The position numbers and the translations under genes were made by a program. Positions 3,324-55,582 of a DNA stretch of 64,000 nt are shown here, one piece after another. This DNA is from a virus. The stretch spans positions 1 through 64,000 of the IMG/VR virus record IMGVR_UViG_3300042562_001138, one strand, 5' to 3'. Within the stretch, counting starts at the first letter, position 1, and each line of letters opens with the position of its first letter. Under the pieces are notes generated by a model that was given only the letters and a program-made list of their open reading frames with translations, made no database searches and had not been told where the DNA came from.

Positions 3324-4229
3324 GTAGTGCTTTCGTTATTCGATGGTATGAGTTGCGGACAAATTGCACTCAACAAAACAGGCATTTCCTATGGCAAATA
3401 TTATGCTTCGGAGATTGATAAACACGCCATCAAAGTAACACAACACAACTACCCTAATACAATACAACTTGGGAGTGTTACGGAAATTAAAGGCACGGAC
3501 TTACCACAAATAGATTTATTGATAGGTGGAAGCCCCTGCCAAGGATTTAGTTTTAGCGGAAAGCAATTAAACTTTGACGACCCAAGAAGTAAATTGTTTT
3601 TTGAATTTGTAAGGCTAATTAAAGAATGTAAACCGAAATATTGGCTTTTGGAAAATGTGGTTATGAAAAAGGAATTTGAACAAGTAATAACCGAACATTT
3701 AGGAGTTGAGCCTGTGAAGATAAACAGTGCTTTGGTTTCCGCCCAAAATAGAGAACGATTATACTGGGCAAACTTTACGATTGAACAACCAAACGATAAA
3801 GGCATAAAGCTAATTGATATTTTAGAAGATACTGAAATGATTGAGCCAAGTGCAATAAGAGGGCGAAGATTGAACAAGGCTACTATTTTGGGCAGAAGAT
3901 TGAACGACAAAGGCAAACGAGAGGATTACAATAAAGAAATACCAATTACTCAATGCCTTGAAGTGAGAGCCACAAACAGAGATAAGAGCAACTGTTTAAC
4001 CACAGTAGCAAAAGACAATGTTTTAACAACAATGCCAATAGGACGACACCCTGACGCATTCAAAAACAATTTGCCTTTCCGCTATTACACAATAAAGGAA
4101 TATTGCAGATTACAAACCGTGCCTGAAACTTACTTTGATGGCCTGGCAAGTGAAAACCAAATTAGAAAAATGATAGGAAATGGCTGGAATGTTGATACAA
4201 TCGCTCATATTTTCGGAGGGCTGTCTTAG
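3315..4229 (+). CDS. DNA (cytosine-5) methyltransferase, cassette-borne
   Basis: C5-cytosine DNA methyltransferase of about 304 aa. Numbering from the ATG at 3315: motif I VLSLFDGMSCG (residues 5-15), catalytic loop SPCQGFSFSG with Cys75, motif VI ENV (113-115), motif VIII QNRERLYW (144-151), and a C-terminal motif X MIGNGWNVD. The ATG at 3315 straddles the cassette junction G^TTAGGC, so it is supplied partly by the upstream cassette. A GTG at 3327 gives a protein aligning exactly with the start of the second methyltransferase at 12321 and may be the native start. An ATG at 3279 would add 12 residues encoded by the palindrome. Likely role: self-methylation against host restriction (inference). 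Confidence 0.9.
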   Translation: MLGVVLSLFDGMSCGQIALNKTGISYGKYYASEIDKHAIKVTQHNYPNTIQLGSVTEIKGTDLPQIDLLIGGSPCQGFSFSGKQLNFDDPRSKLFFEFVRLIKECKPKYWLLENVVMKKEFEQVITEHLGVEPVKINSALVSAQNRERLYWANFTIEQPNDKGIKLIDILEDTEMIEPSAIRGRRLNKATILGRRLNDKGKREDYNKEIPITQCLEVRATNRDKSNCLTTVAKDNVLTTMPIGRHPDAFKNNLPFRYYTIKEYCRLQTVPETYFDGLASENQIRKMIGNGWNVDTIAHIFGGLS

Positions 4230-50588: not shown

Positions 50589-51443
50589 CTATGCGTAAGT
50601 AGTTAATTCAACTAAAGATTTATTAATGTTTAGTTTTTCTAAAAACGATCCGCCATTGTCATAAACAACAGTACAATCATTTACACCTCCTGCTAAAGCA
50701 GTTGTAGTAGTAGCTAATGTACTTGTTAGTGTTGTAGTGATAGCTTCACCATTTAAAGCTTCCGAAGGAGTAGTAGCGGTTACTGTTACAACAGCTCCAT
50801 TTGCAACAGCAGTAAAACCACCAGTTGAAGTGTAAGCGTTAATAGCTGCTGCTGTATTTGTAGCTAACAAAGCTAAACTCGCTCCTGTAATAGCTGTACC
50901 TGTATCAAAGATAGAGTTACCATCAATCTCAATATCGGTTACTGTACCTGCACCTGATGCAAAAGTAATTGTACCGCTAGGATTTACTTGTAAGTAATTT
51001 TCCGCTCCTTTTACTTTCATTCTGTTAATAGCAATTGCAGTTGAAGAATTTAATTCAGTTGCAGCTAATAATTGACTAGATGCAGAAACAATAGTAGCTA
51101 CTGAATCATCAACATCAATTGTTTTAGGTACACTAGAACTTAAATCGTTGTAAGTAACTCTTGAAGTTGAACTACCTAAATCAACTACCAATACAACATC
51201 TGCTTCGTTAATAGCAACAGAAGTACCTAATGACAATTCGCTTAAAGCTAATAATTGTGTACCGGCAGAAACAATGTTTGCAACAGTTTCATCAATATCA
51301 ATGCTTTTAGGAATAGTAGAATTTGTATCTCTGTAAATGATATTGGAAGTTGAACTACCCAAATCTCTTACGAAATTAATGTCGGTTTCATTGATTACAA
51401 CTTGGTTGCCATCTAAATCCGTTAATAATAATAATTTTGACAT
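50589..51443 (-). CDS. FlbD-like repeat protein with shared beta module, 284 aa
   Basis: Residues about 5-65 and 66-128 are two tandem repeats (GNQVVINETDINFVRDLGSSTSN and GTSVAINEADVVLVVDLGSSTSR; each ends in a VANIVSAGTQ/VATIVSASSQ-type helix), with a third partial copy to about 150. The unit resembles the small LTxxNGxxxxINxxxIxxV fold of FlbD-like/phage proteins. Residues about 160-215 are a module (GAGTVTDIEIDGNSIFDTG...AAINAYTSTGGFTA) shared with the 714-aa appendage protein. A strong terminator follows, implying high expression. It may be a capsid-decoration or structural protein (inference). Confidence 0.7.
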   Translation of the reverse strand: MSKLLLLTDLDGNQVVINETDINFVRDLGSSTSNIIYRDTNSTIPKSIDIDETVANIVSAGTQLLALSELSLGTSVAINEADVVLVVDLGSSTSRVTYNDLSSSVPKTIDVDDSVATIVSASSQLLAATELNSSTAIAINRMKVKGAENYLQVNPSGTITFASGAGTVTDIEIDGNSIFDTGTAITGASLALLATNTAAAINAYTSTGGFTAVANGAVVTVTATTPSEALNGEAITTTLTSTLATTTTALAGGVNDCTVVYDNGGSFLEKLNINKSLVELTTYA

Positions 51444-52876: not shown

Positions 52877-53557
52877 TTATTGTAAAAACTTAATTAAATC
52901 TTGATCGTTCTTAATCCAACCATTATCAATAGCAACAGTTATAGTTTTTTCTATTTCAGTTATTTGTTTTAATTGTGAAGATGAAGCTAAATCCCTAATT
53001 CCTTTTTGATGAATACCAAAAACTTTTTTATTGATTAATACCGCATATTTATAATATTCTGGGTTATCAATTATTTTACCTATACTTTGATTCATAGGTA
53101 AATATTCAGTACCAGCTTCTAATCTGTTAAATATTAAAGAATCTGTTAACCAAATAACAACATTAGCGTATATCTTAGGATTTAATTCCATAGCTATTAA
53201 AGTCCAAATATAAGGGTTACAATAAACAGTCTTTGTATTTCTAGCTCCTGTTGTTTTCCAATAACCAACTTCTTTTAATACTTTTGTAATACCCTTATTA
53301 TCAACATCTTGCATAAAACCCTTAAATAAAGGTTTTATAACTTCTTGTTTTTCAAGTATATAGAAACACCTTTCTTTGAACTCTTCTGTTTGAGTAACAT
53401 GGTCAATACGCTTTTCATTCCACCCATACTCAAACCTAGCCTTATCATAAGCTAATTGTAAATCAGATACGTTTAACATTTGAGTTTTTGTTTCTTGCCT
53501 TATTTGAACACCGAAAAGACTCCTGTCGTCTGATTTTAAAATTGAGTTTGTTTTCAT
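52877..53557 (-). CDS. KilA-N domain protein, 226 aa
   Basis: The central part VGYWKTTGARNTKTVYCNPYIWTLIAMELNPKIYANVVIWLTDSLIFNRLEAG fits the KilA-N DNA-binding domain (G-x-W near the start and the LAMELNPxxYxxVxxWL helix). The N-terminal ~90 residues (MLNVSDLQLAYDKARFEYGW) often precede it. Such proteins act as phage regulators or antirepressors. It has its own well-formed promoter and lies near the start of the minus-strand virion block, so it may regulate late expression (inference). Confidence 0.75.
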   Translation of the reverse strand: MKTNSILKSDDRSLFGVQIRQETKTQMLNVSDLQLAYDKARFEYGWNEKRIDHVTQTEEFKERCFYILEKQEVIKPLFKGFMQDVDNKGITKVLKEVGYWKTTGARNTKTVYCNPYIWTLIAMELNPKIYANVVIWLTDSLIFNRLEAGTEYLPMNQSIGKIIDNPEYYKYAVLINKKVFGIHQKGIRDLASSSQLKQITEIEKTITVAIDNGWIKNDQDLIKFLQ

Positions 53558-53782: not shown

Positions 53783-54463
53783 CTACACAATTCGCTTACC
53801 ATAAACGTGCTCCATATAAACCATATGCTCAACACTACCATTAACGCTTAGCTTCTTTACACAATTAGGCTTGGTAATTATAACCTCCCCAACCTGTACA
53901 TCCTCATTAGGCTTTACCAACTTAACTCGGTAATACTTATCGCTCTTCTTCTTTGTATCCAATAACACTATACTAGAACTCTTCAAATACTCCTCCTCTA
54001 TCGGCTCTACCAACACCCACCTATCTATCGCTTCCAAACGGTCGTTGCACAATTTGAGGTAGAAATTAGTAACACTAAACAAATTATAATCCACCTTATA
54101 AGGTAACATATAGTAATATTCACCATTAATCTCTATTCGGTTATCAGGATCGCACATACTATGATGAACATAACAAATATCGCCTACCGATATATCCATA
54201 CTTATCGCTGTCTTTCCCGGACTTAATGAACGAGGTACTTGCACAATTTGACACTTGAAACAAATATTCCTAATCTCATCAGGTATATAATCAGCACGCA
54301 TAACACTATACAACATATCCTTCATCAACTTTATCTCTTTCCCATCCTTATCCCTTATAACCCAACTATCACTCTCATCACTTATCGCTCTCACCAATAC
54401 CATATCCCTAGGCACCACTATTCCTGCAATATCCACTATTCCCTGTAATACACTTAAATCCAT
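53783..54463 (-). CDS. GroES-like candidate protein, 226 aa
   Basis: First gene of the minus-strand block. Two segments have a GroES-like feel: residues about 15-115 (IVVPRDMVLVRAISDESDSWVI ... SVGDICYVHHSM) and about 145-226 (DRWVLVEPIEEEYLKSSSIVLLDTKKKSDKYYRVKLVKPNEDVQVGEVIITKP, ending with MEHVYGKRIV). The order VLVxPIEEE, mid loop, V..GEVII, then a C-terminal strand ending with a basic residue is that of co-chaperonins such as T4 gp31. A doubled GroES fold would be unusual. The assignment is tentative. Two copies of the 9-mer lie in it (54046, 54240), plus two near its 3' end. Confidence 0.45.
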   Translation of the reverse strand: MDLSVLQGIVDIAGIVVPRDMVLVRAISDESDSWVIRDKDGKEIKLMKDMLYSVMRADYIPDEIRNICFKCQIVQVPRSLSPGKTAISMDISVGDICYVHHSMCDPDNRIEINGEYYYMLPYKVDYNLFSVTNFYLKLCNDRLEAIDRWVLVEPIEEEYLKSSSIVLLDTKKKSDKYYRVKLVKPNEDVQVGEVIITKPNCVKKLSVNGSVEHMVYMEHVYGKRIV

Positions 54464-54492: not shown

Positions 54493-54523
54493 CAAAACTA
54501 ATCATTATATCCATAACTAACAA
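54493..54523 (-). promoter_or_regulatory. Promoter heading the minus-strand block
   Basis: Minus strand: -33 TTG (54521-54523), 20-base spacer, -7 TAGTTTTG (54493-54500). It is 29 bases before the ATG at 54463. Copy 1 of the 29-bp repeat starts eight bases upstream of the -33 box, where an activator would bind. Confidence 0.72.
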
Positions 54524-54530
54524 AAAAAAC

Positions 54531-54559
54531 TTGTATCCGTACGGTGGAGAAAGTAGACT
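54531..54559. repeat. 29-bp direct repeat, copy 1
   Basis: Perfect repeat of 54669-54697, period 138 bp. It contains the 8-bp palindrome CCGTACGG at its centre-left (TATCCGTACGGTGGAG). Directly upstream of the virion-block promoter. Confidence 0.92.
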
Positions 54560-54668
54560 AACTTGTTGTAAATCAATATTATAAAAATTGTGCGTGTTGC
54601 GTTTTTTTAATACCTTTTACCGTACCTTTACTACATCCCAGTAAATACGTTTATACTCACCCGAAATG

Positions 54669-54697
54669 TTGTATCCGTACGGTGGAGAAAGTAGACT
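54669..54697. repeat. 29-bp direct repeat, copy 2
   Basis: Identical to 54531-54559. No promoter boxes are seen next to this copy, so it may be a second activator site, a looping partner or an origin iteron. Confidence 0.92.
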
Positions 54698-55078
54698 TTT
54701 CCATTGATTATCAGTTACTTAAAAAAATTGCAAAAAATTTATTTTCGCTTACTCTTGCATATAACAGCCTTTCATAATACCTTTATACCCGACAATTAAA
54801 TAAATTATTAATCAAAACTTAAACGCTCTTTAACTTATTTATTTACTCGTGTTAACTGAAATGTACCGCGGATGTTCGTGGTGGGGGTTATGTGGTGGAG
54901 TGGAGGGGGTGGAATCCGAATGGGGAAACGCAAATCTGCGACTGGGTAGGGGTCAAAACGAATTTCAAACTGTTTTAACTAACTGATTTTTAATCGTTTA
55001 CGTTTTGAACAACTACTTTTTTATTGCGCTTTTTTTTACTACCCACGAACGGTGGTGGGGAATTTTTCCCTATATTAT

Positions 55079-55228: not shown

Positions 55229-55582
55229 ATGGGCTTTGATAAGGATGAAACGGGTAAATTTGCAATTAAATACAGTAAATCACATTGCATACAGTTACAT
55301 AAGCTTTTAACTAAAAAACGCATAAGTAAAACGCATCTTTGTTTTATTCTCTCAGTTTCTGCACCAACTACGGCAACACGTTTAATCAATCAACCTTATT
55401 TACTCTCTTTACAACAATTAATTAATCTATCTTTTGCGCTTAATGTTTCTTTATATGATTTAGTTAGGATTATATGTGAGGATTTTAAAAATTGTGCAAC
55501 GTCCTTTGATTCTGATTTACTTTTATTCGTACCTCCGCATATTAGAGAGTTAACTAAATCTAGTGAGTGGTTTGAGCGTTAA
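55229..55582 (+). CDS. XRE-like helix-turn-helix protein, 117 aa
   Basis: KLLTKKRISKTHLCFILSVSAPTTATRLINQPYLLSLQQLINLSFALNVSLYDLVRIICEDF (about residues 28-90) follows the Cro/CI helix-turn-helix pattern: an ISKTHLxxxLxVS helix-turn, a recognition helix with TTATRL, then LSLxQLxxLSxALNVS. It is the first gene of the plus-strand early block and adjoins the control region, a good place for a phage repressor or early regulator. No clear TAnnTTTG box was found directly upstream. Confidence 0.72.
   Translation: MGFDKDETGKFAIKYSKSHCIQLHKLLTKKRISKTHLCFILSVSAPTTATRLINQPYLLSLQQLINLSFALNVSLYDLVRIICEDFKNCATSFDSDLLLFVPPHIRELTKSSEWFER

Follow-up and report, generated by a model that had tools for sequence, protein, structure and literature searches.

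A conserved direct repeat in the early/late control region of an uncultured phage is a probable regulatory binding site

The repeat described here lies in the control region of an uncultured phage (W), represented by IMG/VR record IMGVR_UViG_3300042562_001138 (64,896 bases in full, also G000). The window, i.e., the whole stretch of DNA analysed, comprises the first 64,000 nucleotides of this record. A long non-coding region is flanked by a leftward gene of 226 aa (53783-54463, - strand), which opens the leftward block and has a weak GroES-like match, and by a rightward gene for an XRE-like protein (55229-55582, + strand; HTH_26, weak match), the first early gene. This region contains two perfect copies of the 29-mer TTGTATCCGTACGGTGGAGAAAGTAGACT on the + strand, a proximal one (54531-54559, core TATCCGTACGGTGGAGAAAGTAGAC at 54534-54558) and a distal one (54669-54697, core at 54672-54696). 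Their starts are 138 bp apart, as the initial annotation had reported, with 109 bp between the copies, and the pair is beyond chance (0 in 100 shuffles). The two copies are the only matches in the complete record, and a third copy at up to three mismatches is absent from the 64-kb window (0 in 100 shuffles).

No start codon opens a reading frame across either copy, so the repeat region is non-coding, as had been proposed. Its surroundings had also been described as AT-rich, which does not hold throughout, as a G-rich tract occupies about 54870-54960. Six frames were inspected for a coding peptide. A frame reading CIRTVEKVD recurs in two unrelated contigs (L011 and L014), where it stops shortly before the next gene; its third codon positions are conserved like the others, a comparison biased by the selection of these matches by DNA pattern. 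In W, however, this frame has no start codon, and the peptide reading was rejected. An RNA hairpin was likewise dismissed: both strands fold no better than shuffles, and no Rfam family is matched. Further left, the gene for a 284-aa protein (50589-51443) holds an internal 167-bp tandem duplication (51052-51401, 71% identical).

A promoter-like sequence heads the virion block, in agreement with the initial annotation. This putative late promoter (54493-54524, - strand) is of the Bacteroidota housekeeping type, TTTG-N20-TAGTTTTG, and consists of TTTG at 54521-54524, 20 bp, and TAGTTTTG at 54493-54500, upstream of the gene at 54463. The proximal copy adjoins it at 6 bp from TTTG, or 7 bp from TTG, rather than at the eight bases from the -33 box first given. 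Promoters were scanned for with the pattern TTG-N18-22-TAnnTTTG, and a putative early promoter directed rightward, CTTG-N20-TACCTTTA (54754-54785, + strand), is newly found. In the near relatives L003 and L004, the late promoter reads TTTG-N20-TAGCTTTG, and a perfect TTTG-N20-TACCTTTG occupies the place of the early one. The TAnnTTTG promoter type carries the flavobacterial sigma A -7 box consensus (PMC9723704). The terminase, the portal and one structural protein of W match PHROG head-and-packaging families, and the best of the GenBank terminase matches listed are Flavobacterium and Cellulophaga phages (~32% identical). Given this terminase kinship and the TTTG...TAnnTTTG promoters, the host of W probably belongs to the Bacteroidota. 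The Flavobacterium elemo phages have a gene order unlike that of W in the region examined.

The early leader contains CGCTCTTTAAC (54824-54834, + strand), a stretch read from the sequence that we take to be boxA-like, followed by a conserved G-rich block (54866-54960, + strand) that starts at its left with GTACCGCGGATGT in W and GTACTGTGGATGT in relatives. Together they may represent an antitermination leader. At 54866-54878, on the - strand, ACATCCACAGTAC of the relatives is replaced by ACATCCGCGGTAC in W. The change from TCCA to TCCG is the same as in both repeat copies, and the binder of the repeat may have a third site here.

Four near relatives in IMG/VR, by terminase identity, are L003 (92%), L004 (91%; G002), and L005 and L006 (both 78%; G003 and the fragment G004). 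Loss of the repeat from relatives that keep the promoter had been set beforehand as refutation; the check found the element kept. L003 and L004 retain both copies at a spacing of exactly 138 bp, as part of a longer repeat of 66 bp, while L005 and L006 have a single copy of the distal type. The distal copy of W shares 93-97% identity with that of L003/L004 and forms the best-conserved stretch of the intergenic region. The proximal copy (TATCCATACGGTGGAACAATGAGAC in both relatives) is 83% identical, compared to 79-86% for the right flank of the distal copy, 70-71% for the 109-bp spacer, whose length is unchanged, and 56-81% for most other intergenic blocks. The conserved core is the asymmetric TATCCRTACGGTGGANNNNNNAGAC. 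Perfection over 29 bp, stressed at the outset, is true of W but overstates the constraint: relatives keep TATCCATACGGTGGA...GAC within the 29-mer, and copies within a single genome may diverge mid-sequence (L003 and L004). The distal copy of L003 has TTGAC instead of TAGAC. The palindrome CCGTACGG, on which emphasis had been placed, is not kept: all four relatives have CCATACGG, which reads CCGTATGG on the opposite strand, and the two-copy genomes have it at both sites. In L005, and apparently also in L006, an inserted methyltransferase-like gene (5348-6037 in L005) separates the repeat copy from the GroES-like gene.

The arrangement of copies and promoters is also constant. From the late -7 box there are 30 bp to the proximal copy, 109 bp from there to the distal copy and a further 81 bp to the early -7 box, identically in W, L003 and L004; further right, the leader shows length differences exceeding 100 bp. 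L003 and L004 are themselves closely related, and the fixed spacing therefore amounts to at best two independent observations.

The A/G site that distinguishes CCATACGG from CCGTACGG agrees between the copies of each genome (G/G in W, A/A in L003 and in L004). Gene conversion is a good explanation for the perfect identity in W, because the proximal copy of W equals the distal one where the copies of L003/L004 differ from each other. Hence, the exact 29-bp identity may stem from conversion instead of selection. A functionless duplication held identical by gene conversion would likewise account for copies that are identical in W, different in L003/L004 and in the same A/G state inside each genome. 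Yet the core is conserved above its surroundings, is kept in single-copy genomes and recurs in unrelated phages, which makes a functionless duplication very unlikely. Rather, the copies are probably a real regulatory binding site kept in relatives. The proposed protein-binding type of control element is borne out insofar as the repeat is conserved in four relatives between the putative early and late promoters, is non-coding and has no RNA fold.

Each copy is accompanied, 12 bp beyond its core, by the word WATCARNNNNTTR or a one-mismatch version of it. The word is perfect at the distal site (TATCAGTTACTTA, 54709-54721, + strand), at the same place in all five genomes, and has one mismatch at the proximal site (AATCAATATTATA, 54571-54583, + strand) with the same spacing. 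Perfect WATCARNNNNTTR words occur in the window at about 0.15 per strand-kb. We take the word to carry the letters of the IHF consensus, a likeness in letters only.

Outside the clade, pattern scans of IMG/VR located the core in two unrelated contigs. In L011 it reads TATCCATACGGTGGACGTAGTAGAC and lies past the terL stop, ahead of the gene that follows; in L014 it reads TATCCGTACGGTGGAGCAAGTAGAC, with 24 of 25 letters as in W, ~580 bp upstream of terS. With any base allowed at three of the core positions and the pattern shortened by its two leading bases, only three matches were obtained outside the clade. Two of these are L011 and L014, in which all free positions agree, with a chance that we estimate at ~1 in 100,000 for a test framed after the first matches. 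The L011 record holds a second core copy with one mismatch 4.5 kb away, and a second copy at up to two mismatches was seen in none of 10 control records with chance matches. The core was not found in the relatives with 33% identical terminases (L020-L025). In L011, a 287-bp insertion right after terL (3698-3984) comprises the core motif and a 70-aa gene and is absent from the near relative L036.

Other sources of the core were considered and rejected. For a host element, the bacterial genome scan gave two matches, both in ordinary coding genes and at chance level; plasmids gave weak matches only, in coding genes, and GenBank phages weak matches only, including one within a glutathione synthetase gene of bacterial type. 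The wider distribution of the core is suggestive. It is conceivable, if rather doubtful, that TATCCRTACGGTGGANNNNNNAGAC is an undescribed regulatory or packaging signal of unrelated phages, able to travel with inserted gene cassettes. If so, the shared signal would imply a common factor reading the core, and a recognition system common to phage groups would have been missed. A blastp comparison found no DNA-binding protein common to W and L011.

The surroundings of the core in these contigs bear on a packaging function (pac or cosB-like), in which the copies would be sites for the terminase small subunit combined with an IHF/HU bend site. Like the R sites and IHF site of lambda cosB, the copies are direct asymmetric repeats with a conserved WATCARNNNNTTR at fixed spacing near the virion operon. 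The element precedes the operon containing terminase, the core of the unrelated contigs lies upstream of terS or just after terL, and the L014 contig starts 13 bp ahead of it. Unlike lambda cosB, however, the terminase gene of W is 4.5 kb from the element, and no cut site is known. Moreover, the G003 contig continues through the element, which is mid-contig, and the L011 record has its second copy 4.5 kb off and one copy on an insertion that L036 lacks. An exact terminal repeat of 11-200 bp was not found in G000. A packaging site is thus distinctly improbable in our estimation.

The position of the L011 core at the start of the insertion would also suit a recombination site (e.g., res-like) of the small serine recombinase encoded by W (1639-2289, + strand), an enzyme strongly conserved in the relatives G001, G002 and G003, which keep the element (87, 88 and 62% identical). 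No crossover site of this enzyme was recognised. A crossover site was expected to show an imperfect dyad of about 26-30 bp, for which the 29-mer was judged by inspection; the core has no such symmetry, with only 4-bp arms TCCA/TGGA in relatives that are partly lost in W. Furthermore, the copies are direct repeats, between which recombination would remove the intervening 138 bp; the recombinase gene is more than 10 kb away, and L005 has a single copy. We hold such a role to be extremely improbable.

An origin of replication would place the copies, as initiator sites (iterons or DnaA-like boxes), beside an AT-rich stretch and the G-rich leader. W encodes a 93-aa protein consisting of the DnaA domain-IV helix-turn-helix only (1187-1468, + strand; Pfam Bac_DnaA_C, 5e-14), which is conserved in the three longest relatives searched (G001, G002, G003) and could bind these sites, as could host DnaA. 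Two words of the core in the relatives, GTATCCATA and TTCTCCACC, which are inverted with respect to each other, match TTATCCACA in 7/9 letters, and the sign of the GC skew switches at 54-56 kb. A resemblance to iteron/DnaA-box origins lies in the short direct repeats beside AT-rich DNA and in the encoded DnaA-domain protein. In W, however, a 7/9 match is left in one half-site only, and DnaA-box-like words are not enriched in the region (5.2 vs. 5.0 per kb in the genome); the corresponding values for L003-L005 are 7.5-8.5 vs. 4.6-5.7 per kb. Two copies are also few for iterons, and the skew change falls where gene direction changes. We therefore regard an origin as unlikely.

Among the proteins initially suggested as binders of the repeat, the XRE-like protein is possible. 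Its gene adjoins the element in L003, L004 and L005, and the protein is present in G001, G002 and G003 (G004 being a fragment), i.e., together with the element. Conservation beside the element is the reason for retaining this candidate, which nothing ties specifically to the repeat. KilA-N is an unlikely binder because relatives with the element lack it: no match to the KilA-N-like protein (52877-53557) was found in L004, L005 and the fragment L006, and only a weak one in G001. The ribbon-helix-helix candidate was not identified among the proteins scanned. The range of candidate binders is hence narrowed to proteins conserved alongside the element.

A second sequence family stands out in this genome. 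Of all 9-mer families, AATTGTGYA is by far the most strongly over-represented, with 92 copies in 64 kb vs. about 4 expected; it has a wider consensus of about CWAATTGTGYAnCnnnC and occurs on both strands (e.g., at 54585, 55489, 55585, 56125, 56719 and 60019). It is found at 1.3-1.7 per kb in L003-L006 and is nearly lacking from the relatives with 33% terminase identity. Across the left and virion blocks, 59 copies run against transcription and 20 along it, whereas in the right arm 10 run along and 3 against, often just upstream of start codons. The family resembles stoperators or uptake sequences. Stoperators of cluster A mycobacteriophages are many asymmetric dispersed copies, mostly in one orientation relative to transcription (PMC6550527, PMC9283540). 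AATTGTGYA shares these features and differs in its 92 core copies, sequence, host and putative repressor type.

We interpret the repeat as part of an early/late switch, in which it would serve as operator or activator site; its sequence is conserved, non-coding and constant in position with respect to the promoters. More specifically, we see about an even chance that the copies are sites of one sequence-specific DNA-binding protein controlling the divergent early/late pair, chiefly the late promoter. This protein would recognise the asymmetric core TATCCRTACGGTGGANNNNNNAGAC, the centre of which is ~56 bp upstream of the predicted late start point, and would probably bind both copies, which are 13 helical turns apart. 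It could activate from upstream or repress by means of a DNA loop. Action on the late promoter is best supported by L005 and L006, where 41 bp separate the single copy from a perfect -7 box (TATCTTTG) heading the leftward genes, 11 bp or one helical turn farther than in W, L003 and L004, in a promoter with a poor -33 box. The regulatory reading is weakened by that same single copy at a promoter lacking a good -33 box, and by the late promoter core, which is not overlapped by the copies, in contrast to a simple repressor site. In addition, the core of L011 and L014 points towards the downstream genes, opposite to its orientation relative to the late genes of W. An activator would not be strictly needed either, because both promoters match the host consensus well. 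The regulatory reading nevertheless offers a testable early/late control module for a clade of uncultured, probably Bacteroidota-infecting phages.

Such a module would be of a known kind, namely a binding site in the control region of a phage, whereas its sequence is new and well conserved in the clade. From general knowledge, the lambda immunity region and the P2/P4 late activator sites likewise have repeated sites of the protein-binding type between divergent early and late promoters, and in switch operators of the lambda/P2/P4 type a Cro/CI-type gene adjoins a long non-coding region, as the XRE-like gene does here. Unlike these operators, the core of W is ~25 bp long and asymmetric, and one site lies just upstream of the putative late promoter rather than across it.
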